Part shown: piece by piece, positions 1-60,146 of the stretch
Numbering within the stretch: position 1 is the first letter of the stretch
How the letters are laid out: the number at the start of each line of letters is the position of its first letter
Origin: Zoogloea sp. 1C4
Lineage (GTDB): Bacteria; Pseudomonadota; Gammaproteobacteria; Burkholderiales; Rhodocyclaceae
Assembly: GCF_009469605.1 (NCBI RefSeq)
Contig: NZ_SSXU01000007.1
Coordinates: 1-64,000 of the forward strand
Direction: 5' to 3'
DNA: 64,000 bases
Made by a program: the position numbers and the translations under genes
Notes under the pieces: model-generated
What the model saw: the letters and a program-made list of their open reading frames with translations, nothing else
What the model was told of the DNA's origin: nothing
Database searches by the model: none

Positions 1-499
1 GCTCCGAACCGTCGGCCGGATGCAGGCTCGCGTGCAGCGTCAGCTCGGCCCCGGGCAGAAACAGCGCGAAGGCGTAGTGATCGGCAGGCAGCTTGGCGTT
101 GGCGCGGGTCGAGACGCGCAGCCGGGAGGCGTCGGCCGCCACCACGCGCAAACCGTTCCAGCGCGCCGCATCGATCTGCGGCTGGGCCAGCGCCAGCAGG
201 TGCCGGCCGGCGAGCCGGAACAGCTCCGCTGAAAACCCCTTCCGCGCCTTGCTGAAGGCCTGCGCGCTGACCTCCCGACTGCGGACCGTCATGCCCTTCA
301 ACTGGCCGAACAAGGTGTCGAGTTCGGCCTGCACGCTGGCGCACATTCCGGACATCATCATCGCCGCGATGCGCGGCAAGGTCAGGTGGCGATCGCGGGT
401 GAAAGCGCCCGGGCGCAGGCGCACTTGATTGACCAGGGCGGGGTCGAGGAGGAACTTGGAGAACTCATCCAGCAGCGATTGGGGATCGAGTGTTTGAGT
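1..499 (-). CDS. IS4-family transposase, N-terminal part (cut by window edge)
   Basis: The frame reads QTLDPQSLLDEFSKFLLDPA, then a conserved block with SREVSAQAFSKARKGFSAEL, then VVAADASRLRVSTRANAKLP. The last block has the first Asp of an IS4-type DDE transposase catalytic domain. In this family the transposase catalyses cut-and-paste transposition. About 166 residues are visible and the rest lies outside the window. The frame opens right after a TGA at 500-502, and no ATG, GTG or TTG precedes the conserved region. Either an unusual start such as CTG is used, or the 5' end of the gene is damaged. An ATG at 501-503 is in a different frame and hits a stop after 12 codons. The family call is from recognised sequence pattern. 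Confidence 0.7.
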
Positions 500-599
500 T
501 CATACTGTCTATTTATCAATGACTTAACGGTATGAATTTTACCGAGAGTGGCGCGGGTTCACAAGGGGGTTGGCGTTAAGTTGGGAGCATTGCCTTAGC
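1..599 (-). mobile_element. IS4-family insertion sequence, partial (one end only)
   Basis: The transposase reading frame at 1-499 runs off the left edge. The non-coding stretch 500-599 should hold the terminal end of the element; the segment near 572-598 (GTTAAGTTGGGAGCATTGCC) is a plausible terminal repeat, but the other end is not in view, so the boundary is estimated. The mobile element starting at about 600 abuts it, so the IS lies beside or inside that element. Confidence 0.6.
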
Positions 600-665
600 A
601 CGGCCCGTGAGTAGAGCCCGAGGGAGGTTCGCATTACCCTTGCGGCAGACCTTCCGGAAAGGACC

Positions 666-686
666 CACGACCGCCGGCAGGTCGTG
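666..686. other. Hairpin downstream of the tail-Z-like gene
   Basis: CACGACC and GGTCGTG form a perfect 7-bp stem around a 7-nt loop, 19 bases past the stop of the last gene in the element operon. No T-run follows on the minus strand, so it is not a classical intrinsic terminator. It may stabilise the transcript end. Confidence 0.35.
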
Positions 687-704
687 CCATCTGCAGGTTC
701 AGAG

Positions 705-1583
705 TCACCGCGCCGACTGCATGGCCTGCCGGAAGGCGGTGTTGAAATTGCGGTTCCAGTCAGCAGCGAAGACCCGGCCGACCATCTGCGGCATGTCGAA
801 CCGCTTCCGGTACGTGCCGGCCCGAACGAACATCACCAGTGGCTTGATCTCGGCACCGTGGATGCCGGACTTCTCCCAGATGCCCGCCGGCAGGTTCTGG
901 CTTCGGCCATGAAGCCATGCGCCACGCCCGAACCAATGGCCGCGACCACGCGAGACAAAGTAGGCCTTGCCGGCGATCTCCACATAGTTGCGGCGCACCT
1001 TCTTTCCGCCTTGGCTCTTGACCATGTAGTCGGCGCCACCACCCGGGCGGCGGCGCTGGCGGATGTTCTCCCGCTTCGCCCGGCCCCGGTCCGTCTCGTT
1101 GGCCCGGAACCCTTGCTCTGCAAAGAGGCGAAGCACGGACATGATCTTGACCACCGACCCTTGAGACAGATTGCCGAACGCGTCTAGCGCGGCGCCAGCG
1201 CCAGGCACAACCATTTCACCGATGCCCAGCAGTCCGGCACGCCGAAGCGCACCCTCAAACTTCGTGAACGGGCGGGCACCGCCCGTGAAGTGGTGATTCA
1301 ACACCTTGGCGTAGGCGGTGCCCTTGCTTGGGGCATCGTACTGAATGCCAACGCCAATCCGGACGGACAGCGATTGCTTCGTGGCCGGTAGCACCTGAAT
1401 GGCCTGCTTGGTGACGTACGGCTTCGGCCTGTCGAATTGCTGCCCAAGTTCGGCATTCACTGCCGTGCGCGCAGCCTGCCCGGTCATCGTCAACGAGCGC
1501 GCGGCGACGAATGGGAGCTGCCGCTTCACAGACCGGATCTGCAGCAGCGCGGGGGAGAGATGGGCTTTCACGGTGATCTTCAT
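705..1583 (-). CDS. Phage minor tail protein Z-like
   Basis: 292 residues from the ATG at 1583, beginning MKITVKAHLSPALLQIRSVK. The frame is open further upstream, but that extension is low-complexity and antisense to other signals, so the MKITVK start is preferred. Ala/Arg-rich N-terminus, long basic middle, and a C-terminal block with VMFVRAGTYRKRFDMPQM and an FNTAFRQAM-like amphipathic end resemble lambda gpZ-type tail completion proteins, which join tail to head. This is judged by eye and the similarity is weak. It is the last gene of the element operon. It and the tape-measure gene are the only structural-type genes seen here. Confidence 0.5.
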   Translation of the reverse strand: MKITVKAHLSPALLQIRSVKRQLPFVAARSLTMTGQAARTAVNAELGQQFDRPKPYVTKQAIQVLPATKQSLSVRIGVGIQYDAPSKGTAYAKVLNHHFTGGARPFTKFEGALRRAGLLGIGEMVVPGAGAALDAFGNLSQGSVVKIMSVLRLFAEQGFRANETDRGRAKRENIRQRRRPGGGADYMVKSQGGKKVRRNYVEIAGKAYFVSRGRGHWFGRGAWLHGRSQNLPAGIWEKSGIHGAEIKPLVMFVRAGTYRKRFDMPQMVGRVFAADWNRNFNTAFRQAMQSAR

Positions 1584-1638
1584 TCTTGAGTGTCCATTCA
1601 AGGGGTGCGAGACATGAGGGAGGGCTGCCGAATCCAGA

Positions 1639-2109
1639 TCAGACCATGAAGGGGTGGGGCCGCCAGTCGGGGCAGGTCGCCCCGCCATCGTCCGGAAGCC
1701 GGCGCAGGGGGTGCCCGGGGGTGTAGGCGGGCGGAAGGTCCGGGCGACTCCCGCAGTAGCCGTCAGAAAGGCCGGGGCGGTGTCGGTGGGCGCAGGTTCG
1801 GCAAGCCGATTTGACGGGTGCTGTATGCGGCGCAGATTGCCCTTCAAGCCCACCCCCGGCCGGCTCGATAAATGACATTGAACTGCTATTTTCGTGACCT
1901 TCGACCCTAGACCTTTCAAAAACCGTCGGAACAGTCGGAACGGTCGGAACAGAGTCCGGAAACCCAATCGGGGCGCGGCTTTCGGCTGTTCCGACCTTTT
2001 CGGGATTTTGGGGTTTGTTCCGACCTGTCGAGTCGGAACAAGGGTGTTTTGCCTCATTTGTAGGCGTCATTTGGGTGGAATCGGCCACCAATTCAGCCCA
2101 GTCAATCAC
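1639..2109 (-). CDS. Cys-rich mobile-element protein of unknown function
   Basis: 156 residues. It starts with GTG at 2107-2109, overlapping the primase stop by 8 bases (translational coupling). The N-terminal half is polar and contains the tripeptide repeat VPTVPTVPT, encoded by three tandem GTCGGAAC-containing 9-mers on the opposite strand. The C-terminal half has a CRTC motif, a DGYCG motif and GATCPDW, giving four cysteines that could bind a metal. Similar short Cys-containing proteins follow primase genes in other integrated elements; this is recollection, not a search result. Function unknown. Confidence 0.55.
   Translation of the reverse strand: MIDWAELVADSTQMTPTNEAKHPCSDSTGRNKPQNPEKVGTAESRAPIGFPDSVPTVPTVPTVFERSRVEGHENSSSMSFIEPAGGGLEGQSAPHTAPVKSACRTCAHRHRPGLSDGYCGSRPDLPPAYTPGHPLRRLPDDGGATCPDWRPHPFMV
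1925..2039. repeat. Iteron-like cluster: six GTCGGAAC/GTTCCGAC octamers (candidate replication origin)
   Basis: GTCGGAAC occurs at 1925-1932, 1934-1941 and 1943-1950 (exact 9-bp spacing) and again at 2032-2039. The reverse complement GTTCCGAC occurs at 1988-1995 and 2017-2024. The last pair forms a perfect 10-bp inverted repeat (2015-2024/2032-2041, 7-nt loop). The cluster sits inside the gene just downstream of the primase. P4-type primases act on iterons, so an origin role is inferred. Confidence 0.55.
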
Positions 2110-5038
2110 CTTCCATCCCCCACCCGAGAACAGCCGGTTTTATGCAAAACAGGCGGCTCGTTCCGCCGGCTCCAGGCTCCCTTACCTTGACCGCAATGTT
2201 CTTGCCGTCGCCATGCTCAAGCAGTCCTGAATCCGTCAGCACCTTGACCACCTGTGCCGGGTCAAACCCGTTGCACAGCTCGCCCTTGAAGACAGCCGGA
2301 TAGATCAGGTACTCAAAGACGTGATCGGCTTCGTTCAGGCTTGCCGTGTCCTTCGTGGGGCGCTTCCAGCCGGCCCGGTTCATCGTCCGTGGCGCGTGCG
2401 TGTCGGAGATGCTGGGGCGTCTCCAATCCTCCAGGCGGGCGCCTGCGTGGGCCTGAATCCACGCCTGAACCTGTTCCACCATCTTGCGGGGCTCGCGGTT
2501 CTCTTCGCCCCCGAAGGCCTGCAGCCAGTCCTTGAACATCCGAAAAGCCGCCTTGACGGCCTCCCCCTGCGGCCAACCGGTCAGGCCCCATTCCGTAGCC
2601 TTCTCGCCTGCGTAGGCCACCGCGGCAAAGCGCGTCGCAGCCCGGATCGCCTGCCCGCCGGCTTTGTTCGACAGGGCGCGGGCCTCGAAGGCGCGGCGCA
2701 GCTCTTCGAACTGAGTGGGCATTGCGTCCCGCTCCCGGATCACGCGGCGGATGAACTCGGGGTACGCCGTGCCGTAGTGCTTGGCGGCGTTGCGCTGCAG
2801 GGTTTCAGAAAAGCGCGCCCCATCGGGGAGGCCGTGCAACACGTCCCAGCAGCCGAAGCCGGCGCCGGCATCGGCCGGCAGCTCGCAGAAGCGCACCTCC
2901 TGGCCGGCGTAGGCGCGTTCCTGGTTCTCTTCGAGGAACTGAGTCAGGCCGATTTCCCCGTTTGACTGGAAGAGCAGGGAGAAGGAGGCGGTTTCCCGCA
3001 GCCCCCCGGCGGCCTGCCCCCGGCCTTTGCCCTGACCGCTGGTCAGCATGTAGGCCGCTTGGGCCACGTCCCGCGGGTTGCCGGCCTGCTTGAGTTCATC
3101 AAGCAGGAGGGGGGCGTCACAGTGTCCGGCGGCCACGCCTTCAATCGCGGTAGCGGTCAGCAGCCAGGTGCGGCGGTAGGTGGCAGGGCCGCACAGGCTC
3201 GTCGCGGAGTAGAGCAAGGCGGACTTGCCCAGGCTCGAACCGCCGGCCCAATGGAAGCCGCCCGACACGTTCGGATGCAGCCAGCACAGGCCCCCGGCGA
3301 AGGCCGCCGACAGGGCGAACGTCAGCCGACTGTTGCCCACCGCCAGGGCGGCCACGTTGGCCCGCCAGTCGTCGAGGGTGCCGGCCTGCTTGAACTGGGC
3401 GTGTCCGCTGCCCTGTGCCGCGTGCAGCCACAGTTCAGCTCCTGGGGCGGCAAGCGGGTCGGCATCGCCGCCTAGGACGAAGGACCAGCGGCCAGGCTCG
3501 GAGCAGTCATCGTGCCAGCCGATGCGGCCCGTCAAGCGAGCGCGGGCAGGTGGCCGTGATCGGTTCACGTACATCTTCAGCAAGCCGCCCTTGTTGTCGC
3601 CAATGAACAGGCCCTGAGCGCGCAACAGGCGGGCCAGCGCGGCGCCGTCGCCTTCGAGCATTTCGTCAGGAACCAACACCCGGCGGCGCCTTCCGTCGTG
3701 GTCGTTGAAGGTGGCGAGACGCTGCCAGTTCTCACCCCGGGCATCGCGCACCTGGTGCGTGATCTCAAGCGGGGCGCACACGAACTGTTCGACGGTCTCC
3801 CAGCCTTCGCCGCGTCGTTCCACCTTCAGGCGATACACCCCGCGGCCGTCGGCGCCGTCGCGAAGCTCGAACACCTCGCCGCCGGTCGGTGCGGGCGCCG
3901 CCTTGGTCTTGGGCTTGCGGGGGCGCTTGGCGGGCTTCTCCGGTTCAACCGAAGGCGCAGCGGGGGCGGTTTCCGGGCCGCTGGTGGGCGTTTCGGCTTC
4001 GGGTGCAGGGATAGGCGCGGCATTGGGCGTTTCGTGTGCCTGCGGGGCCGGAATCGACGCTGCCGCGGCTTCGAGGATCGCCCGCACCGCATCAAGGCCG
4101 GCGAGGGCGTGCAGATCGTTGAAGTCGGTCGCGCGCTCGGGCCGATCCGGGCCGAACTCCGGCACCGCCACCACCCCGCCCACGGCACGGGCGGCGGCAT
4201 CGGCCTTGGTGCGGCCGGGATTGCCTGCGGTCTGGTGATCGTCGTCGGCACAGATGATGAAGCGCGCGCCGGGGTGGGCATCACGCAGGGCACGGGCCAC
4301 AGGCTCCAGACTGCCAGCGTCGAAAGCCACCGCCACCGGCCAGCCGGTGGCCTGGTGGATGCTGGCCGCGGTGGCGTAGCCCTCGGCCACGCACAGGGGC
4401 AGGCCTTCCGCCGGCTCGCCGATCAGATGGAACTTGCCCGCCTTCTCGCCGCCGGGCAGAAAGTCCTTGTCGCGGCCGTCGACCTTCTCCGCGTGGATCG
4501 CCTGCAGGCTGTGCAGGGTGCCCGACGGGCTGCGCATGGGCACCAGCAGGGCGTTGGGGATGCGGCGCCAGTCCTGCAGGTGATCGTCCCACTTGGGCCA
4601 GGTGCCCACCCGCAGGCCGAACGATGGCACCCCTTTCCGTTCCAGATAAGGGTGATCGTCCGGCGCCGGCTTGGCGCTGTTCCAGATCGCGTTCGCCTTG
4701 CGGCGAGCCTTGTCCCGCTTGGCCTTGGCTTCGGCCTCCCGTTCAGCCCGCTGGGCTTCCGTACGGGCGCGGGCGGCGGCTTCCTCTTCGGGGGTGAGCT
4801 GGCGGCCGATGTCGGCCCGCCAGTTCTCCCAGTCGAGACCGTCGCGGAAGTTCTGGAAGCCGCCGGCGGGGATGCCGTCCAGGTGGAGAAGGTAAGCCCC
4901 GTCATTCTTGCCCTTCGGACCGTTCGCCAGCTCGCAGCGGTGCAGCTTTCCGTCCGCATCAATGCGGTCCGGCAGGCGCAGGCCTCGAGCTTCGGCAGCG
5001 GTGCGGAACTGGGCAAGGATCGAGGTGGTATCGATCAT
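2102..5038 (-). CDS. Toprim/DUF927 primase-helicase of the mobile element
   Basis: 978 residues. The N-terminal part (about 1-330) has a Toprim-type domain: LCVAEGYATAASIHQATG carries the catalytic Glu and FIICADDDHQ the acidic triad. A Pro/Ala/Lys-rich linker follows (about 330-390). Then comes a DUF927-type ATPase domain with a Walker A-like GGSSLGKSALL (about residue 600) and a Walker B-like APLLLDELKQ. Such proteins prime and unwind DNA at the origin of satellites and plasmids. The ATG overlaps the stop of the upstream 225-aa gene (ATGA), and its own stop overlaps the next GTG start. It is expected to act on the iteron cluster just downstream. Confidence 0.85.
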   Translation of the reverse strand: MIDTTSILAQFRTAAEARGLRLPDRIDADGKLHRCELANGPKGKNDGAYLLHLDGIPAGGFQNFRDGLDWENWRADIGRQLTPEEEAAARARTEAQRAEREAEAKAKRDKARRKANAIWNSAKPAPDDHPYLERKGVPSFGLRVGTWPKWDDHLQDWRRIPNALLVPMRSPSGTLHSLQAIHAEKVDGRDKDFLPGGEKAGKFHLIGEPAEGLPLCVAEGYATAASIHQATGWPVAVAFDAGSLEPVARALRDAHPGARFIICADDDHQTAGNPGRTKADAAARAVGGVVAVPEFGPDRPERATDFNDLHALAGLDAVRAILEAAAASIPAPQAHETPNAAPIPAPEAETPTSGPETAPAAPSVEPEKPAKRPRKPKTKAAPAPTGGEVFELRDGADGRGVYRLKVERRGEGWETVEQFVCAPLEITHQVRDARGENWQRLATFNDHDGRRRRVLVPDEMLEGDGAALARLLRAQGLFIGDNKGGLLKMYVNRSRPPARARLTGRIGWHDDCSEPGRWSFVLGGDADPLAAPGAELWLHAAQGSGHAQFKQAGTLDDWRANVAALAVGNSRLTFALSAAFAGGLCWLHPNVSGGFHWAGGSSLGKSALLYSATSLCGPATYRRTWLLTATAIEGVAAGHCDAPLLLDELKQAGNPRDVAQAAYMLTSGQGKGRGQAAGGLRETASFSLLFQSNGEIGLTQFLEENQERAYAGQEVRFCELPADAGAGFGCWDVLHGLPDGARFSETLQRNAAKHYGTAYPEFIRRVIRERDAMPTQFEELRRAFEARALSNKAGGQAIRAATRFAAVAYAGEKATEWGLTGWPQGEAVKAAFRMFKDWLQAFGGEENREPRKMVEQVQAWIQAHAGARLEDWRRPSISDTHAPRTMNRAGWKRPTKDTASLNEADHVFEYLIYPAVFKGELCNGFDPAQVVKVLTDSGLLEHGDGKNIAVKVREPGAGGTSRLFCIKPAVLGWGMEGD

Positions 5039-5712
5039 TCCATCAGCCCCTCGAAAACGTTCGGCTGAACCGGAGCGCCTTGAACCGCCGCCATGCTCAT
5101 TCGGTGAAGGTCTGCATTGGTGAGCTGGTCAAGGCGAGCATTGAGCACATCCAGTCGCGCTGGAAAGCTCAGGCCCAAATCGATCACTTTGTGAATCACG
5201 GAAAGACGGCCGGTGTCGGTCGTGGCGTCTGCACATGCCAACGATTGCAGCCACTGACCTATGGGGTCAAAGCTCCAGTCATTTGGAAAGTCGGTGCCGC
5301 ACTGCCTGAAGAGCTTGAGTGCGGCAACCCCCAACACTTCGCCAAGGAAGTGCCCGGTTCCAAATTGGCGAACCGGGAACTCGTCCGGAAACATGGCCGG
5401 GTCAGGTAGCTGATCGAGGGGTGCAACCGTGCTATGGCCGATCCGGAAGCGAAGTACAGACCGCCATCTGGCGAGCAGGCGCACGGGCGTACCGACAGCT
5501 CGGCCGCCGGCTTCGGTGATGGAGATTGCACCCGACGGCGCCTGATTACGCTGAGCGGCACGAAAACCGATCGCATGAATCGATGTCTTCACCTGCGAAT
5601 GCATGCGTCTGCACGGAACGGTTCGAAACCTCGCCATTCGGCTGCAGGGCTTCACAACACGGCAGCTAGCTCGCACTTTGGGCCGATTGCCCCGCGGGTC
5701 ATCGTGGCTCAT
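5035..5712 (-). CDS. Unknown protein between tape measure and primase
   Basis: 225 residues with ATGA overlaps at both ends: start overlapping the tape-measure stop, stop overlapping the primase start. The N-terminal third is basic and Cys-containing (RASCRVVKPCSRMARFRTVP). The C-terminal two thirds are more ordinary globular sequence (DFPNDWSFDPIGQWLQSLAC). There is no signal peptide or clear membrane segment. I do not recognise a family. The overlapping architecture argues that it is translated and works with its neighbours. Confidence 0.6.
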   Translation of the reverse strand: MSHDDPRGNRPKVRASCRVVKPCSRMARFRTVPCRRMHSQVKTSIHAIGFRAAQRNQAPSGAISITEAGGRAVGTPVRLLARWRSVLRFRIGHSTVAPLDQLPDPAMFPDEFPVRQFGTGHFLGEVLGVAALKLFRQCGTDFPNDWSFDPIGQWLQSLACADATTDTGRLSVIHKVIDLGLSFPARLDVLNARLDQLTNADLHRMSMAAVQGAPVQPNVFEGLME

Positions 5713-8672
5713 CCCATCGCCCCCTTTGCCCGCCGGAGCGCATTCACAAGGGCCTGCGCATATTTTTCTTCTACTTGCAAGGGAAGGACGTTGCCGCCGT
5801 CCACAACCTCGACCCGAACCGTGCGCACAATGGTGTTCGTAGAGGCCTGAGGAATCTTGCCGGCGAGCTTGTCGGCGAGCGCCTGTACAGCCTCGTCCAG
5901 CGTTCTTCCGTACGTGTTCTGAACGTTGCCGTAGGCGTCGAAGAACTGCGGGGCGGCGGCTGTTGCCGCATCCTCAGTGACGCCAAGCCCTTTCAGCCTT
6001 TCTGTAACAGCTTTCGGAGTCGGCACGGCCATCGAGATCACGTCGCCACTACCGCCTTTCGCGAAGGCATCCTTGGCATTGGCCGCAGACTGAATGGCGG
6101 ATGCGGCAGACTGGTAACTCCCTGCAACTCTATCTGCTGCTGTGGCCGCTTCATCTGCAGCCGAGGAAAGGTCGCCGAACGTGGATTTCAGCTCCTGCGT
6201 TTCGTACGAAAGCGCCTTCATCCGATCCGCAACGAGTTCGTATTTCTGTGCCTCAAGCTCCTTCGCCTTGATGTTGGCGTCCATAACGGACAACTCGGCT
6301 TTCTTCGATTCGGTCAGCGGCCCCGATGCTTCGAGTTCAGCACGCTTCGCATTCGCGACCAGCAGCATGGCGTCCGCCTCCAGGCGCGCTGCCTGAGCCT
6401 GAGCTTCGCTGATCTGCAGCTCAATCCGCCAGACGGCAATCTGAGCTTCCGCAATGTCCTTCTCGTTGCCTCGCTGCTTGGCAATCTCCAGGATCGTGTT
6501 GGCCCGGTACAGATCGTTTTGAAGGGCAGACTGCTGCAGCCCGGACGCGGTTCGTTCGGCAGTCAGGTGGCGCTCTGCCGCTGCCGTGGCATCCGCCAGC
6601 GCATCCCGATACAGCAGCAGCGCCTTGGCCCGCTCTTCGTCGGCGGCTCGAAGCTCTTGGGCAACATTGATGCCCCGCGCATTCAAGGCAGAAAGCCGGC
6701 TGTACTCGGCCTCAGCAGCCTGCCAGGCATCACGCAATGCGTAGATCTGCTTGCTGTGGTCCGCGTATACCGATTGCGCGGCTTCGGCCTGCAAGGTGGC
6801 GGAATGGGCCGCGGCAGTCGCCTGAGTGGTCTTGTCAGCTTCGGCCTGCTTGGCAGCAATGGTCTTCTGAAGCTCATCGCGCAGCTTCTCTTTTGATTCA
6901 CTCAGCTTGCCGTCGCTGCCGCGCTCCTGTTCGAGGGCCGCCAGACGGGACTTAGAAATTTCCAGATCCGCCTTCACCTGATCGGATATCTTGCGCAGCC
7001 CGGCTTCGTGCTCCTTCGCGGCGTTCGTGGCCGCATCGAGCTTTTCCGCTTCGGTGCCGAAGGTGTCGGCGAATGCCTTCATCGAGGCAGCGCCCGCATC
7101 GTTGGCATCGGCTAGCGTCTTCAGATTGGCGATCTGCTTCGTGCTGGCCTTCTCGACCTCGGAGTAGGCGTTTTCGATCTTGAGCCAGTCGCCGGACGCT
7201 TCAGCGGCCTTCTTCCCGGATTCCTCTGCCGCCTTTCCAACCTCATCAAGCCCGGTGGCCGCGACCTTGGTGGAATTGCTGATCTTCTTTAGGCTTTGCT
7301 CAGTCTGAATGTCGATCTCGCCGAGTGCCTCTTTGGCCTGGTCGGAAAACCCCTTTAGGCCGAAGTCACCTGAAGCGATGGCGCCTGCGATCACGCCGAT
7401 TTTCTTGGCCGATGCCTCGAAGCCGACCGTCAGGACGCCAACGGCCTGCGTTGCAAGCCCGAGGCCTTGCGTGATCGCCTTGAAGACACCGCTGTCGCCG
7501 ATAACCTGCCAAGTCTCGGAGACCGCGTTCTTGAGCCGCGCCAGGTTGGCGACGAAGGTTTCGTTTTCGGCCTTGCCAACCCCGTACATTTCGGTCAGCC
7601 CCCGGGCAAGGGCCGGCAGCAGATCCTCAGCCAGTACGTTGCCTGACTCGACCATCTTGGACAGTTCCGCCACCGTCAGACTGGTGCCGTTCGCAGCGGC
7701 TTTGAGCGCGCCGGGCAGTGCCTCGCCGAGTTGCCCTTTCAGCTCCTCCATCTGGACCGTGCCCTTGCTCGCCATCTGATTGACGGCCATCAGGGCGCTA
7801 TTCGTTTCAGCGCTGCTCTTTCCCAGGGATGCCATTGCACCCGCCACAGCCTCGAAAACACGCCTTGCGCCGTCGCCCTCCAGGGCGGTGCCTTGGGTTG
7901 CGGCAAGCAATTGGGTGTAGCTTTTCGCCGCTTCTCGGGCATCGATGCCAAGGCGATTTGAGGCGCCGCGGATGTACTCCAGTTCGGCAGCCGCCGCCTG
8001 TGAGCTGCCCTTCAGTTGGGTGAGCGTACGAAGCAGGCTCTCTGCACCGGCATTGGCGGCGATGAAGTCTTTACCTGCCTGCATGGCGGCAAAAAGGCCA
8101 ACAAACTGACCCGCCATTGCAGTGACCTCACCCCGCAGACCCTTCGCTTGGCCTTCCATCCGATTCATCGCGGGAAGCGTGCCGTTCATCTCCGCTTCCA
8201 GGGCTGCGATCTTGGTCTGAGCTGCCGAGAAGGCCCGGTCAAAATCGGCGCCCGATACCTTGGCGTTGGCACCAAGTTTCAGCAGCGACTGCTGGATGTT
8301 GAGAATCTCTGCCTGAATGGCTTCGCTTCCGCGAATGCCTGCGGCCGAGAAGGCATCTGACAGGGCGCGCTTCGTCCGGGATGAGAACTCCTCAACCGCT
8401 CGGGCTTCTGCCTCGCGGAGACTGACCGCCCGTTTCATGGTTGACTCGGCCTCTGCGTAGGTCTTTCGCTCCGCGGCAAGTAGCTCCTGTGCGGCCATCC
8501 GCTGGCGCGTCTTGGACGCCTCGACGATGGCGGCGAGGCGGTCTTCTTCGCGGGCCGTCTCCGCAGCCTGTTTCCCGACATCCTCGACAGACTTGTCTAG
8601 CGCGTCGACCTTCTCGATACCCGTGACTTCGGCACGGATTTCAACACTGGTGGCGGTATCAGCGTTTGCCAT
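5709..8672 (-). CDS. Phage tail tape-measure protein
   Basis: 987 residues. Residues about 230-370 form the conserved tape-measure N-terminal region: RGASNRLGIDAREAAKSYTQ, GKSSAETNSALMAVNQMASK and GTVQMEELKGQLGEALPGAL. A hydrophobic stretch follows (about 410-450), then very long Ala/Glu/Lys-rich coiled-coil sequence (about 480-860), and a compact C-terminus. Tape-measure proteins set tail length during assembly and later pass through the tail tube. The gene overlaps the upstream 97-aa gene by 14 bp and the downstream gene by ATGA. Its position between an AlpA regulator and a primase, away from any capsid or tube genes, is unusual. Confidence 0.85.
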   Translation of the reverse strand: MANADTATSVEIRAEVTGIEKVDALDKSVEDVGKQAAETAREEDRLAAIVEASKTRQRMAAQELLAAERKTYAEAESTMKRAVSLREAEARAVEEFSSRTKRALSDAFSAAGIRGSEAIQAEILNIQQSLLKLGANAKVSGADFDRAFSAAQTKIAALEAEMNGTLPAMNRMEGQAKGLRGEVTAMAGQFVGLFAAMQAGKDFIAANAGAESLLRTLTQLKGSSQAAAAELEYIRGASNRLGIDAREAAKSYTQLLAATQGTALEGDGARRVFEAVAGAMASLGKSSAETNSALMAVNQMASKGTVQMEELKGQLGEALPGALKAAANGTSLTVAELSKMVESGNVLAEDLLPALARGLTEMYGVGKAENETFVANLARLKNAVSETWQVIGDSGVFKAITQGLGLATQAVGVLTVGFEASAKKIGVIAGAIASGDFGLKGFSDQAKEALGEIDIQTEQSLKKISNSTKVAATGLDEVGKAAEESGKKAAEASGDWLKIENAYSEVEKASTKQIANLKTLADANDAGAASMKAFADTFGTEAEKLDAATNAAKEHEAGLRKISDQVKADLEISKSRLAALEQERGSDGKLSESKEKLRDELQKTIAAKQAEADKTTQATAAAHSATLQAEAAQSVYADHSKQIYALRDAWQAAEAEYSRLSALNARGINVAQELRAADEERAKALLLYRDALADATAAAERHLTAERTASGLQQSALQNDLYRANTILEIAKQRGNEKDIAEAQIAVWRIELQISEAQAQAARLEADAMLLVANAKRAELEASGPLTESKKAELSVMDANIKAKELEAQKYELVADRMKALSYETQELKSTFGDLSSAADEAATAADRVAGSYQSAASAIQSAANAKDAFAKGGSGDVISMAVPTPKAVTERLKGLGVTEDAATAAAPQFFDAYGNVQNTYGRTLDEAVQALADKLAGKIPQASTNTIVRTVRVEVVDGGNVLPLQVEEKYAQALVNALRRAKGAMG

Positions 8673-8952
8673 GGCTGATCACCTCCACCAGTTTTTCTTG
8701 CCAGGCGTCGCCGAATTGCACCTTGAACGTGGCGGCGACTGTCATCGCAACCCGTTGGTGGTGAGCGGTCAGCGCGTCACCAATCACTACCTTCAAGGGT
8801 GACTCGGAGCCCTGAAGTTCAGCCGCGACATTCAGGACTTCGATCAGCAGATCGAGTGCGCAGGGCAATGAGTTGAACTCATCGACGTGGAAACGCAGTT
8901 TGACTGGGTTCTCACCGGACTTCGGTCGGACTGGCAGGTATATGACTTTCAT
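8659..8952 (-). CDS. Small unknown protein upstream of the tape measure
   Basis: 97 residues from an ATG two bases after the AlpA-like stop; its 3' end overlaps the tape-measure start by 14 bp. Acidic to neutral with a mixed alpha/beta look (KLRFHVDEFNSLPCALDLLI). No signal peptide or membrane segment. By position it could be a tail assembly chaperone or small regulator, but the sequence itself does not show which. Confidence 0.55.
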   Translation of the reverse strand: MKVIYLPVRPKSGENPVKLRFHVDEFNSLPCALDLLIEVLNVAAELQGSESPLKVVIGDALTAHHQRVAMTVAATFKVQFGDAWQEKLVEVISHGKR

Positions 8953-8953
8953 G

Positions 8954-9238
8954 TCACGCCCCCCCGTTCAGTGCTTTGCGAAGCTCGCCGACGTTCCAGG
9001 CGGTGACGCCATCGGAGAGACGTCGAGGCGAGGCAATCCGATTGGATTTCGACCAGCGCCAGATGGTGGCTGGTGATACCTGAAAAAGGGCGCAAACGAC
9101 CGGAAGGCGGACGTATGCAGAGTCGGGATAGGAGTCGAAGCCGGCCAGCGCCGGAGGGATCGTGGTAGCCGGCTGGGCGGGCACGTCCCTATCGATGGGC
9201 GCCGAGGCCGCAAGGCGCTGGGCTTTTCGCTGTTTCAT
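8954..9238 (-). CDS. AlpA-like helix-turn-helix regulator
   Basis: 94 residues from the ATG at 9238, chosen because GAGGAC lies about 8-13 bases upstream; longer in-frame starts exist at 9253 and 9289. The C-terminal half reads YVRLPVVCALFQVSPATIWR then WSKSNRIASPRRLSDGVTAW, the MerR-like winged helix-turn-helix layout of AlpA/excisionase proteins. In P4-like elements AlpA-type proteins activate the element operon or promote excision. It is the first gene of the coupled operon. Confidence 0.75.
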   Translation of the reverse strand: MKQRKAQRLAASAPIDRDVPAQPATTIPPALAGFDSYPDSAYVRLPVVCALFQVSPATIWRWSKSNRIASPRRLSDGVTAWNVGELRKALNGGA

Positions 9239-9261
9239 TTGCCATGTCCTCATGATGTTGA

Positions 9262-9310
9262 GGCATGGCGACCATTGATGATGTCCCATGCCTCTTGTTG
9301 AAAGGCATGG
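9262..9310. promoter_or_regulatory. GGCATGG/CCATGCC repeats upstream of the AlpA-led operon
   Basis: GGCATGG at 9262-9268 and 9304-9310, with the reverse complement CCATGCC at 9286-9292. The two direct copies are each preceded by TGTTGA and followed by CGA. The placement just upstream of the AlpA-like gene suggests operator sites, perhaps for AlpA itself. Inference from position only. Confidence 0.4.
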
Positions 9311-9330
9311 CGAGACTAGGAGACGCGTTT

Positions 9331-9351
9331 CAGGGTTTTCCGGTAACCCTG
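9331..9351. terminator. Hairpin just past the 378-aa cargo gene
   Basis: CAGGGTT and AACCCTG form a perfect 7-bp stem around a 7-nt loop, three bases beyond the stop of the cargo gene. The T-rich tail (ATTTT) follows on the plus strand, not the minus strand, so a terminator role for the minus-strand gene is uncertain. Confidence 0.3.
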
Positions 9352-9354
9352 ATT

Positions 9355-10491
9355 TTAGCCTCCACGTTTCTTCTTTCTCTTGTTGCTCAACGTGGTCTCA
9401 AAAGATCTGAATCCTGTTGGAGCTTTCGCGAGGTGGCCCGCGGCGGTGATCCACGACACTTCATGTTCGTTTATGTCGTAAACAACCCCCTTGCCCTTGT
9501 AGGCTTTCAGTTGATCCCATACTTGTCTCGCGGACGCCCCAGCGCCAATCGTGTCGAGTATTTCATCAACCAAACGCCAAAGGCCCCGCTCGTGACCACC
9601 GCTCTGATCGAAGTTCTTGACCCGTTCAATTTTTCGCGCCATGTCGCTCTCTCGTCGCATGAACTCGCGCTCTTGCTCTTCAAAGCGCAAACGCGCTAGT
9701 TCGGACTCCGCAGCCAACTCCGCCAGTTGGGCCAAGCGGAGAAGGTCGCGGGCGCGCCGCAGCTTCCCAAACCCGTATGACGAGTCTTGGCGACGCTTCT
9801 CGGATATCTCGGTTAGGAGCATTGAAAAGCGCCCGTCGTCCCGGCGGCTGATGTCTTCATCCATCGCTCGTTCCTCGACATCTTTAATCAGGTTCACGAG
9901 TATTTTTGCGGCAGCATGGGCCTGATCTGCAGCCAACAGTGCAAGAACGTCACTGTCCCCGATGTCCTTGCATTCCGGCCAAAACAGCCTCGCTGATTGA
10001 AGAACAGACGGAAACCGATCGGCGTACTGAAAAACCGATCTGCGGACTCCGTTAATTGATCGGGCCGCTCGTTGCATACCGTCTGTCCACACGGGCTCGT
10101 CGCTTGATGAGCTGACAACGCGGCCATGCTTGGAGAGCATGCCAAGCGCGGCATTAAAAGTACGATCGGCTTCCTCAAGGTCGCTCTGATAACTTGACCA
10201 AAGCCGACACCAGTCCGCCTCGATCAAGAGATGATGGAGGTCATCGAACAGCGGGTTAAAAGGCGGCGGCATATTCTTCCCTTGGACGTCAATCAGGCTT
10301 CCGCCCAGGTTGTCGCTGCCTTGACGGTTGTTCGAAAACCGCAGCGGTTGACGTTCGACAAACGAAAAATGGCTGCGAACGCGATACTTGAATTCGGCCG
10401 AAAATGAATCCAGCTCATCGCCAATATCTGCCTCATCTAGCTGGCGCCGCTTCTCCGCAAGCAGCCACTCTCTGCGTTTTCGGTTACTCAT
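9355..10491 (-). CDS. Unidentified 378-aa cargo protein of the mobile element
   Basis: Starts MSNRKRREWLLAEKRRQLDE. The N-terminus is highly charged. Residues about 75-200 look alpha-helical. A long charged helical or coiled-coil stretch follows (LLRLAQLAELAAESELARLR and on to REFMRRESDMARKIERV, about 245-285). The C-terminus is smaller and ends KRKKKRGG. No membrane segment, signal peptide or recognised catalytic motif. It lies between integrase and AlpA, the place where satellites and islands often carry accessory or defence cargo. Function unknown; I do not claim a defence role. Confidence 0.6.
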   Translation of the reverse strand: MSNRKRREWLLAEKRRQLDEADIGDELDSFSAEFKYRVRSHFSFVERQPLRFSNNRQGSDNLGGSLIDVQGKNMPPPFNPLFDDLHHLLIEADWCRLWSSYQSDLEEADRTFNAALGMLSKHGRVVSSSSDEPVWTDGMQRAARSINGVRRSVFQYADRFPSVLQSARLFWPECKDIGDSDVLALLAADQAHAAAKILVNLIKDVEERAMDEDISRRDDGRFSMLLTEISEKRRQDSSYGFGKLRRARDLLRLAQLAELAAESELARLRFEEQEREFMRRESDMARKIERVKNFDQSGGHERGLWRLVDEILDTIGAGASARQVWDQLKAYKGKGVVYDINEHEVSWITAAGHLAKAPTGFRSFETTLSNKRKKKRGG

Positions 10492-10605
10492 GCTGAGACG
10501 CCCCTTCCGGCGCCCTTCGAAAAGGTGCCGCGCCAGCGGGGCGAAGGTTTCCCCGTTTTCGGTTGGCCGACCTAGGCGCGGCGTTCTGCTCGGTTGATCC
10601 TCAAT

Positions 10606-11862
10606 TCAGGCGGCGCGGCCGTGTATCGGTACGACGTTTGCCCCGGCTTTCAACTGGTCGAGGAGGTCGGCCCACTGCTGCATCATTCGGCGACGGTCTT
10701 CAAGGTGCTCCGCGTGGTTGTAGGTCCGTCGAACCGCGTTTGCGTCGGCGTGGGCAAGCTGGCGCTCGATCCAATCCGATGGAAACCCCATTTCGTTCAG
10801 ACGCGTGCTGCCCGTGGTCCGGGTTGCGTGGGGGCTGTATTTGCCCGACCAGCCCAGCGTATGCAGCGCCTGGCGGAAGGATTCAACGGCCATCGGGCGG
10901 GCGCGATCGTCACGACCGGGGAATACGTGGGTCAGGTGCCCTGTGATGCCGTGCAGAGCGCGCAGGGTGGAAACGGCTTGAGCGGGCAAGGGGATTGTGT
11001 GCGGCTTGCGTTTCTTCATCCGTTCCGCAGGGATGCGCCATAGCGCGGCGTCGAGGTCGAATTCAGACCATTCCGCCTCTACGGCCTCAGACGGGCGGCA
11101 CAGGGTGAGCCACATCAACAGGAAGGCGCCGCGTGTTTCGTGGCGTCCGCCGTGCCCGTCCATGTCCCTGAAGAGCCGTCCGATCTCTTCCAGCTCCAAG
11201 GGGCGCTTATGCTGCGTCTTGTTGGCGGGCAGGGCCTTCCGCACCGGCTGTACCGGGTCGGTGTCGGCGCGCAGCGTTGAAATCGCCAGGTCGAACACGC
11301 TGGACATGGTGCGTTTCACTTCATCGGCAACGCTCGGCCCGTTTTTCCCGTGGGCGGTCTTCAGCACATCAAGAACATGGGCGGGCGTGATCTGCTTGAC
11401 TGGCAGCGCTCCTATCTTCGGGAAAACCACTCTGGCCAGGGTGTCGAGGCGGCGGGCCTTGGTGGTTTCCTCCCAGTCTCGCATTGCGACCCATTCACGG
11501 GCCACGACCTCGAAGGTGTTGTTGGCGTCCTGCTGCGCCCGGATCTTGTTGAGTTGGCGAGCGTGGGCGGGGTTAATGCCTTGCTTGACCAGCGCCCGGG
11601 CCTTGGCGCGCTCCTCGCGGGCTTCGGCCAGGGTGAAGCACCGGCCGGCACGGCGGGCTTCGGCCTCCTCGGGCGTTTCGCCAGTGGGGGCGGTCACGTA
11701 CTCGCCGACGGCGAACATGGACTCCTTGCCGTTCAGCTCGAAACGGTAGCGCCAGGCCTTCACGCCGTTGGGCTTCACCTCAAGCACCAGCCCGTTTCCA
11801 TCCGTGAGCTTGTAGGGCCGTTCCTTGGCTTTCGCGTTCCTGCACTGGGTATCGGTCAGCAA
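10606..11862 (-). CDS. P4-type tyrosine site-specific integrase
   Basis: 418 residues with a TTG start at 11862. The N-terminal DUF4102-type arm-binding domain reads LTDTQCRNAKAKERPYKLTD and GNGLVLEVKPNGVKAWRYRF. The C-terminal catalytic domain has the first Arg in LTLCRPSEAVEAEW, HATR (His/Arg pair) near residue 340, AHADANAVRRTYNHAEHLED with the His and the nucleophile Tyr. It catalyses integration and excision of the element. It is transcribed away from ychF into the element, which places the attachment site in 11863-11975. Confidence 0.92.
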   Translation of the reverse strand: MLTDTQCRNAKAKERPYKLTDGNGLVLEVKPNGVKAWRYRFELNGKESMFAVGEYVTAPTGETPEEAEARRAGRCFTLAEAREERAKARALVKQGINPAHARQLNKIRAQQDANNTFEVVAREWVAMRDWEETTKARRLDTLARVVFPKIGALPVKQITPAHVLDVLKTAHGKNGPSVADEVKRTMSSVFDLAISTLRADTDPVQPVRKALPANKTQHKRPLELEEIGRLFRDMDGHGGRHETRGAFLLMWLTLCRPSEAVEAEWSEFDLDAALWRIPAERMKKRKPHTIPLPAQAVSTLRALHGITGHLTHVFPGRDDRARPMAVESFRQALHTLGWSGKYSPHATRTTGSTRLNEMGFPSDWIERQLAHADANAVRRTYNHAEHLEDRRRMMQQWADLLDQLKAGANVVPIHGRAA

Positions 11863-11884
11863 GGCAAATACTCCTTTGTAGCTG

Positions 11885-11938
11885 TACCCGGCCTATTTTC
11901 CGGGTAAGAGTTTTTGTACCCGTGAACTTACCCGGTAA
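11885..11938. promoter_or_regulatory. TACCCGG repeat cluster upstream of the integrase
   Basis: TACCCGG at 11885-11891 and its complement CCGGGTA at 11900-11906 form an inverted repeat. Further partial copies are GTACCCG at 11916-11922 and the near-palindrome TTACCCGGTAA at 11928-11938. They lie directly upstream of the integrase start. They may be integrase arm sites, operators for autoregulation, or both. Confidence 0.45.
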
Positions 11939-11975
11939 ATGGTGAGATTCCAAGATGCGTCATGATACGCGGTGA

Positions 11976-12003
11976 AAATAAAAAACCCCGCAACAGCGGG
12001 GCT
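11976..12003 (-). terminator. Intrinsic terminator of ychF
   Basis: On the minus strand CCCCGC-TGTT-GCGGGG is followed by TTTTTTATTTT. It lies 50 bases past the ychF stop and marks the chromosomal side of the junction with the mobile element. Confidence 0.85.
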
Positions 12004-12053
12004 TTCTGGGGCTTTTGATACAGCGTGATCTGCTGTGATCTAAGGGTGCATGC

Positions 12054-13145
<1,092 letters not shown>

Positions 13146-59354: not shown

Positions 59355-59430
<76 letters not shown>

Positions 59431-59450
59431 AACGACTTGCAGTAAATAGG

Positions 59451-59526
59451 GTCCCCATCGTCTAGAGGCCTAGGACACCGCCCTTTCACGGCGATAACCG
59501 GGGTTCGAATCCCCGTGGGGACGCCA
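59451..59526 (+). tRNA. tRNA-Glu (TTC), copy 1
   Basis: 76 nt with CCA encoded. Acceptor GTCCCCA; anticodon loop CTTTCAC gives TTC; T-loop TTCGAAT. Identical to the other two Glu copies in this cluster. Confidence 0.97.
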
Positions 59527-59594
59527 GGATCAAACGTCCTGCAGCAATGCAGGCAGTCGCAACCAAGACCGGGTTGTGACGGCAGTTAAAGTGC

Positions 59595-59671
59595 GGAGTG
59601 GTAGTTCAGTCGGTTAGAATACCGGCCTGTCACGCCGGGGGTCGCGGGTTCGAGTCCCGTCCACTCCGCCA
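59595..59671 (+). tRNA. tRNA-Asp (GTC), copy 1
   Basis: 77 nt. Acceptor GGAGTGG pairs with CCACTCC and G73 discriminator, CCA encoded. Anticodon loop CTGTCAC gives GTC. The spacer from tRNA-Glu has a CCTGCA-GCAA-TGCAGG hairpin (59538-59553). Confidence 0.97.
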
Positions 59672-59717
59672 CCAACAGAAACGAAGAAGGCTCTGCTTTC
59701 TTTGGGCTGTAATAGCA

Positions 59718-59793
59718 GTCCCCATCGTCTAGAGGCCTAGGACACCGCCCTTTCACGGCGATAACCGGGGTTCGAATCCCCGTGGGGACGCCA
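59718..59793 (+). tRNA. tRNA-Glu (TTC), copy 2
   Basis: 76 nt, identical to copy 1 (acceptor GTCCCCA, anticodon TTC, CCA encoded). It stands between the two Ala-Glu-Asp units. Confidence 0.97.
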
Positions 59794-59833
59794 CTTTCGC
59801 CAGGAGTGGTCAAGCTAGTAGTTGTTGTGTTGT

Positions 59834-59909
<76 letters not shown>

Positions 59910-59926
59910 AACAACCGAATACACAG

Positions 59927-60002
59927 GTCCCCATCGTCTAGAGGCCTAGGACACCGCCCTTTCACGGCGATAACCGGGGTTCGAATCCCCGTGGGGACGC
60001 CA
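59927..60002 (+). tRNA. tRNA-Glu (TTC), copy 3
   Basis: 76 nt, identical to copies 1 and 2. Spacer to the next tRNA-Asp is homologous to the first Glu-Asp spacer. Confidence 0.97.
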
Positions 60003-60069
60003 GGATCAAGCGTCCTGCAGCAATGCAGGCAGTTGCAGCCAAGCCCGGCTGTGACAGCAGTCAAAGCGC

Positions 60070-60146
60070 GGAGTGGTAGTTCAGTCGGTTAGAATACCGG
60101 CCTGTCACGCCGGGGGTCGCGGGTTCGAGTCCCGTCCACTCCGCCA
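60070..60146 (+). tRNA. tRNA-Asp (GTC), copy 2
   Basis: 77 nt, identical to copy 1. Last gene of the cluster; an intrinsic terminator follows 10 bases later. Confidence 0.97.

Follow-up and report, generated by a model that had tools for sequence, protein, structure and literature searches.

Satellites have long been known to remodel the heads of the phages that they exploit. P4 uses the tails of P2 and the capsid-size protein Sid, and the capsid-forming phage-inducible chromosomal islands (cf-PICIs, a kind of PICI) carry an integrase, an AlpA-like regulator and a primase. Here we analyse a satellite-like element at the beginning of a 64-kb stretch of Zoogloea sp. 1C4 DNA (hereafter the window, which opens contig C118 in a genome of 140 contigs, G000), which encodes its own primase and its own tape measure protein (TMP), the determinant of tail length.

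Satellites with tail rulers of their own were shown by experiment only in 2026, in a single family from Vibrio. According to that report (PMC12987554, March 2026), the phage-inducible chromosomal island-like elements (PLEs) of V. cholerae encode a TMP and a tail assembly chaperone (TAC) and build chimeric tails; the PLE TMP is found in satellite particles, PLE11 particles use the capsid proteins of ICP1, deletion of tmp cuts PLE11 transduction by about 99.9%, and PLE11 tails are 10 nm shorter. Putative tmp genes in PLE-like elements and cf-PICIs are mentioned in the legend of its Extended Data Fig. 10. PLE11 also encodes Rta, an 80-aa protein which is not a TMP and which inhibits tail assembly, and tail-assembly inhibition (Tai) is a known defence of PICIs and P4-like satellites (PMC11364771). 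Another comparable element is AH14b of Pseudomonas sp. ANT_H14, 16.8 kb in size, which has an incomplete structural gene set and is packaged in phage capsids (PMC4936722). The original prediction, made from the window alone, had regarded a satellite that supplies a tail length determinant as an undescribed strategy, a claim that the TMP, TAC and chimeric tails of the PLEs overturn. We did not find the Zoogloea family itself in the literature searched, outside the coverage of which lie preprints and most closed journals.

We consider it fairly probable that the Zoogloea element is an integrated satellite of the P4/PICI-like kind which places its own TMP into the tails of a helper phage. A single element holds an integrase, an AlpA-type regulator (a weak match), a primase of its own and attachment (att) ends, and no complete structural gene set is present among the genes called in the window and in two contigs linked to it, C90 and C42. 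The satellite-encoded TMP, which matches PF20155 and phrog_2335, is the feature shared with the PLEs. Upon induction of, or infection by, a helper phage, the satellite would excise from ychF and replicate with its Toprim-DUF927 primase; capsid, tail tube and tail tip would come from the helper, as would the packaging enzyme and lysis, and the satellite's share would be the TMP, the product of the preceding small gene and, perhaps, the minor tail protein. Particles would thereby obtain chimeric tails of a length set by the satellite, whose TMP would serve DNA delivery. Anatomy, boundaries, recurrence, kinship with prophage-type TMPs and selection can be read from the sequences; that the element excises, depends on a helper, has its TMP built into tails and shortens them is what we infer. 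The strategy fits the PLE precedent, where it was shown by experiment.

As in the PLEs, the TMP is encoded by the satellite together with other tail genes, and it is shorter than the phage TMP with which it was compared (987 against 1170 aa; PLE11 and ICP1 differ by 95 aa). Host and backbone genes differ from those of the PLEs as far as seen, the two being set apart by description and not by sequence; moreover, the small Zoogloea gene is not recognisably a TAC, and no baseplate hub gene was recognised. Two relatives in the genus (G017 C14 and G015 C65) resemble cf-PICIs in carrying a capsid gene plus a TMP, whereas no capsid was recognised in the window element or among the genes of Z. dura that were scanned. 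P4-like satellites share with our element an integrase, AlpA and a large primase-helicase, and they use particles supplied by the helper, as our element would, but P4 modifies capsid size while the Zoogloea element carries a TMP. AH14b is similar in its integrase (38%), AlpA-like gene, Toprim (39%) and DUF927 (28%), which stand in a similar order, and in having a tail assembly gene (TAPI) like that of its helper; the window primase aligns with the phage record phiAH14b at 31.9% identity over 88% of the query. Unlike in our element, no TMP, DUF3987 or resolvase is annotated in AH14b, and the primase is split in two genes.

An element between ychF and tatC

The satellite-like portion of the window (positions 593-12073) holds integrase, AlpA-like, 97-aa, TMP, primase, Cys-rich and 'minor tail' genes, and all genes named in the original prediction were found, on the minus strand and in the run that it had described, as confirmed by profile matches and junctions (Table 1). 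A gap of 1 bp separates the AlpA-like gene from the 97-aa gene, and overlaps of 14, 4, 4 and 8 bp follow at the 97-aa/TMP, TMP/225-aa, 225-aa/primase and primase/Cys-rich junctions, after which 55 bp precede the minor tail gene. These values bear out most of the tight coupling proposed for the run, but conservation of the 225-aa frame is limited to its last 151 residues (68% to a relative directly before the primase in locus L110, which has no TMP), and the gene caller favours a start giving 119 aa, so that the true gene is probably shorter and its overlap with the TMP gene may be an artefact. The AlpA-like gene lies where it had been placed and is 65% identical to the corresponding gene of a second element in this genome (on contig C20), though its profile match is weak.

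Because the window begins at a contig end inside an insertion sequence (IS), the absence of capsid genes could not be concluded from the window alone. The right end of the IS lies at about position 592. The genome contains six left ends and six right ends of the IS, which can be paired by eye via flanking repeats of at least 8 bp, and the end in the window pairs with C90 through its target duplication. Besides small genes, this 4.2-kb contig carries the 5' portion of a gene for a DUF3987 protein, which is related to the same module in Z. dura. The DUF3987 gene is repeated in the genome: C42 and C48 each begin with a 3' part, and another 5' part lies on C20. This repetition is probably why the assembly is broken. 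On C42 we find the other end of the element, where a serine resolvase, a repeat that agrees with the ychF 3' end at 21 of 23 bases, and tatC follow one another. We infer the join from C90 to C42, which was not read through; an alternative join via C48 would bring in a DUF3987 piece, two small genes and a resolvase, with no structural gene by look (no profile scan). The same layout is present across two contigs in G010, with the resolvase beside tatC and an exact 18-bp repeat at both places, and in G022 ychF directly adjoins tatC. Integrase relatives lie beside ychF in G010 (91%) and G001 (87%).

Summing the visible parts without the IS, the linked element measures ~18 kb between ychF and tatC, with about 112 DUF3987 codons and the IS interior unassembled. 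No capsid, portal, large terminase, tail-tube or lysis gene was recognised in it, a negative which covers nine window proteins together with 12 genes from C90 and C42, the latter contig taken as far as the resolvase; these 12 genes gave no structural PHROG at E up to 0.01. The lack of capsid, portal, terminase, tail tube and lysis genes observed in the window therefore holds after the C90 and C42 genes are added, and we rejected the idea that capsid genes lie just past the window, none being recognised on these contigs. PADLOC gave no useful result on three window and three C90 genes. The sequence 3' of ychF varies among Zoogloea species (tatC, other genes or the element), suggesting an insertion hotspot.

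Tape measure proteins on a recurring backbone

Relatives of the primase were sought in 23 genomes of the genus and fell, by manual row grouping, into 15 close loci. Two of these (G015 C323 and C644) end inside the primase and were excluded, leaving 13 loci that are readable in the sense that the stretch after the primase can be read; G015 C484 (locus L117) begins inside the primase and may therefore belong to C323 or C644. A TMP is present at five of the 13 (the window, G011, G005, G017 C14 and G015 C484) and missing at eight: G000 C20, G013, G017 C63, G010, G008, G003 C82, G003 C51 and G020, the last of which has a capsid gene. Among the other frames called between primase and DUF3987 at these eight loci, the longest has 368 aa, and in G010 and G008 the stretch before the primase, the place of the TMP in the window, is only partly readable. 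Four weaker primase loci (L120-L123) had no TMP match, a fifth (G005 C7) lying outside the sample. The window primase is 84-87% identical to those of G013, G000 C20 and G017 C63.

The element of Z. dura (locus L009, on G011 C1) is 20.7 kb long, bounded by a 95-nt repeat (94%) after tRNA-Arg, and contains the primase, a small-terminase-like (terS-like) gene (phrog_57, 1.5e-9), the TMP and IetAS, with no capsid match among the genes scanned. In two genomes besides that of the window, G011 (Z. dura itself) and G005, a terS-like gene, a small gene and the TMP stand in this order with no capsid match. The element of G017 C14, bounded by a 49-bp repeat of the tRNA-His end, has a major head gene beside the TMP (PF25209, 3e-45; phrog_4523, 2.4e-94), and G015 C65 combines an integrase, another primase, a capsid gene and a TMP, with repeats at tRNA-Pro. 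Since capsid genes stand beside the TMP in these two, head genes are a variable cargo and not excluded from such elements. TMP cassettes also occur with other backbone remains, in G003 C65 (with a DUF3987 module) and on one IMG/VR contig, while G019 C127 and G006 C129 (L010) have a TMP with a protease, and G019 also a capsid gene, no integrase being seen in either. The joint search for TMP and primase that the original prediction had proposed thus shows recurrence at five of 13 loci, in Z. dura without a capsid among the genes scanned, though some relatives do carry one.

Three side observations concern these loci. The genome itself holds a second element of the same backbone (G000 C20:1-11254, L100), with a primase 86-87% identical to that of the window and no TMP or capsid match. 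The cargo of Z. dura includes the IetA/IetS anti-phage defence genes (L009 17567-20999). Capsid genes of 368-376 aa (L065 14665-15795, L064 10528-11634 and L115 11834-12940) correspond to no more than the C-terminal half of a family in which major head and protease are fused, and no TMP was found in L115.

The window TMP is 66% identical to that of Z. dura and 73% to that of G019 C127. It also aligns at 55% over 930 aa with a 1170-aa prophage-type TMP, compared with which it has ~130 fewer residues on the N-terminal side. This longer TMP belongs to a tail gene region which lies on the opposite strand beside a related satellite on one 52.9-kb IMG/VR contig (L108, L142), and which we take to be a prophage, half of the contig having been read; the satellite carries Phage_TAC_4 and DUF1799 ahead of a TMP of 774 aa. 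The contig possibly presents a satellite and its helper side by side.

Judged by their sequences, the TMPs of the primase loci fall into three divergent types. Proteins of the window type match TMP_3 and phrog_2335. For G005 and G003 C65 the best match is phrog_12706, with phrog_2335 matched as well, and their TMPs align with that of the window over short stretches only. G015 C484 has a lambda-type TMP (PF09718; L117 1741-4766), followed by an HK97-gp10-like gene, after the same primase. The TMP of G017 C14 resembles a prophage-type TMP (68% identity over 770 aa) more closely than any satellite TMP (54% or less), which points to a separate uptake or exchange, and from the alignments such events probably occurred on more than one occasion. 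All satellite TMPs compared have 774-1144 aa. TMP frames are open over their full length, with pairwise ratios of nonsynonymous to synonymous substitution (dN/dS) of 0.14-0.31 at dS near saturation, and primase pairs give 0.14-0.17. The low TMP dN/dS, the linked element and the recurrence at five of 13 loci support the view, already put forward in the original prediction, of a satellite-like element that encodes a tail length determinant but no recognised head genes.

Beyond the close loci, TMP relatives were found in five of 61 sampled genomes of the family (E up to 1e-3) and seven of 369 of the class (E up to 1e-12), the query genome being counted in both. Outside the genus, a family match in G056 (37%) extends over nearly the whole length and the other nine cover about 150-360 residues. 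In the surroundings of five of the six class matches, L135 and L136 have a capsid match, L138 a weak one (E 3e-4), and L134 and L137 other phage-like genes without a capsid match.

The Zoogloea elements suggest the same solution as in the PLEs on a different backbone. Besides the backbone, what would be new is the exchange of TMPs with prophages, a small pre-TMP gene found only in satellite-like loci, and mosaic TMP N-termini, with head genes as a separate, optional cargo. Elements without a TMP, with a TMP alone, with both TMP and capsid, and with a capsid alone form a natural series in one environmental genus, a series that lets the benefit of a private TMP, and its choice over that of the helper, be tested directly.

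The small gene and the TMP N-terminus

Small genes related to the 97-aa gene lie directly before the TMP in five other satellite-like loci and in none of the prophage regions fetched. A profile built from the six small proteins found no further member in the window and 142 fetched loci, barring duplicate copies, and tblastn of the 97-aa protein and its L064 relative against 50,697 phage records gave no match. The link to the L065 member is indirect, the 97-aa protein scoring 36 against it where the shuffle maximum is 39. Small gene and TMP do not overlap in L009 and L114, being separated by 61 and 30 bp. The idea that the 97-aa gene encodes a classical TAC was not supported (model with a predicted local distance difference test score, pLDDT, of 77; no match at E <= 0.001 in PDB or BFVD).

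The TMPs of the window and L069 share their first 84 residues (40%) and, of the body, only a C-terminal stretch (composition adjustment); the N-terminal match is clear for the N-termini alone and unreported by full-length BLAST with composition adjustment. L069 and L114 match over a 901-column body (60%) and do not share the N-terminus, and L009 and L114 are alike in their first 157 residues (64%) and, beyond these, in no more than a weak C-terminal stretch. On these alignments, TMP N-termini and bodies are mosaic. In five of the six loci the best partner of the small protein is also the best partner of the N-terminus, which fails for L069; this suggests that the small protein may act together with the TMP N-terminus. 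A tentative and rather doubtful extension would be a tail-capture cassette, in which a small protein seen here only in satellite-like loci and a swappable TMP N-terminus of 84-157 residues, set on bodies from different phages, select the satellite TMP. If so, small protein and N-terminal module would form a selector that makes helper tail tubes assemble on the satellite TMP, and would address a step left unexplained for the PLEs.

Alternative explanations and other features of the locus

Several observations weigh against a satellite that places its own TMP into helper tails. The backbone does not need a TMP, as this is missing at eight of the 13 readable relatives, and in the window it stands upstream of the primase, whereas in the other four TMP-bearing primase loci it stands downstream. 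No helper prophage with a clearly related TMP was found in this genome, the sole other PF20155 place being below the cut-off. Although placed before the TMP, the 97-aa protein has no recognisable chaperone fold and no convincing profile match; L062 and L063 have unrelated small genes before the TMP, which we left out of the family, and the TMP of an ordinary tail region, L061, resembles the window N-terminus (31% over 81 aa; z 8.4), so that the N-terminal module is not exclusive to satellites. This copy may be worn, given the IS inserted in the element and a frameshift in the DUF3987 gene of C90. AH14a and AH14b are uninformative on tails, since their particles were seen tailless and no lytic growth was observed (PMC4936722). 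Finally, the 'minor tail' gene, called tail-Z-like in the original prediction, matches phrog_1924, but its tail role is uncertain: in phages LESphi2 and U8 (L143, L144) its relative sits between the Rz spanin and terS genes, outside the tail genes.

We also considered that the TMP, with the 97-aa protein, might serve mainly as a decoy which poisons the tail assembly of infecting phages and so protects the host, instead of entering satellite particles, because tail-assembly inhibition is a described satellite defence (Tai of PICIs and P4-like satellites; PMC11364771), with Rta of PLE11 as a further case. An accessory TMP, absent at eight of 13 readable loci, and the IetAS defence genes of Z. 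dura would agree with such a function. However, a decoy would not require a TMP of near-whole length, such as all those compared, the TMP of G017 C14 and G015 C65 lies beside a capsid gene as in a particle-building set, and Rta is an 80-aa protein and not a TMP (PMC12987554), so we regard a decoy as unlikely.

It is improbable, in our judgement, that the element is an inert remnant, apart from integrase and primase, of a prophage or capsid-bearing satellite that lost its head genes. The IS insertion, the frameshifted DUF3987 gene and the capsid-bearing relatives (G017 C14, G015 C65 and G020) are what such a remnant would predict, but the TMP and primase frames are open with the low dN/dS given above, the order of terS-like gene, small gene and TMP is present in G011 and G005 with no capsid match, and TMP types differ between elements. 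A decayed prophage, which the original prediction had already argued against on intact frames, was thus rejected as first choice on account of open, selected frames and a recurring order, even with the wear seen in this copy. Of the terminase, portal, capsid and tail modules of a tailed prophage, only the TMP and the minor tail gene were recognised (intergenic remains not searched), and a prophage with the same gene order plus capsid genes, which would have spoken for decay, was seen in none of the prophage regions fetched. Least likely of all, and to our mind very improbable, is an integrative island without phage-based transfer, whose TMP would be a passenger acquired by recombination with prophages. 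Seven of the 13 readable primase loci have no recognised TMP or capsid gene, as such an island would allow, but the structural genes carried belong time and again to one class (TMP, terS-like, capsid, protease), in a tight gene order, and phage capsids package AH14b, which shares the core genes (PMC4936722). We therefore continue to favour a satellite that equips helper tails with its own TMP.

Table 1 Features of the element in the window.
Feature	Positions	Strand	Evidence or remark
IS end with partial transposase-like frame (2-424)	1..592	-	named by look; inserted in element, contig edge
IS target duplication CCTTAGCACG (if IS stops at 592)	593..602		identical bases before left IS end on C90
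Gene annotated minor tail protein, 292 aa	705..1583	-	phrog_1924 5.9e-47
Cys-rich protein gene, conserved backbone, 3' of primase	1639..2109	-	tblastn in related loci
Toprim + DUF927 primase-helicase, 978 aa	2102..5038	-	DUF927 2e-61, Toprim_3 5.5e-10
225-aa frame, backbone gene; real gene probably 3' 119-151 codons	5035..5712	-	L110 relative
TMP, 987 aa	5709..8672	-	Pfam TMP_3 PF20155 2.2e-25, phrog_2335 9.2e-43
97-aa gene, candidate TMP partner or chaperone	8659..8952	-	small-gene family before TMP
AlpA/excisionase-like helix-turn-helix (HTH) regulator, weak match	8954..9289	-	phrog_66 0.0013, HTH_17 0.0035
378-aa gene after integrase	9355..10491	-	weak relative at same place in G010
Tyrosine integrase	10606..11862	-	PF00589 1.9e-22
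Attachment repeat, 3' end of ychF	12051..12073		21/23 bases repeated at C42:2281 beside tatC

The minor tail gene was scanned as 705-2057, and its phrog_1924 match covers the last 293 residues, with the start near 1583. Relatives are present in 52 of the 50,697 phage records; scans of viral contigs with the TMP and the minor tail protein gave nothing useful, and the structure model of the latter (pLDDT 31) was unusable. No Pfam match, no PHROG below 0.4 and no PADLOC match was obtained for the 378-aa gene. By tblastn, 11 of the 14 remaining close primase loci contain a match to the Cys-rich gene, at 44-65% identity, and of the three without one, two break off inside the primase. In L121 and L122, elements that are more distant, the last 48-49 residues of the Cys-rich protein still show 75-78% identity. 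Far from the element, at 59355-60146, the window contains seven consecutive tRNA genes (Ala, Glu, Asp, Glu, Ala, Glu, Asp), which look like a duplicated array.

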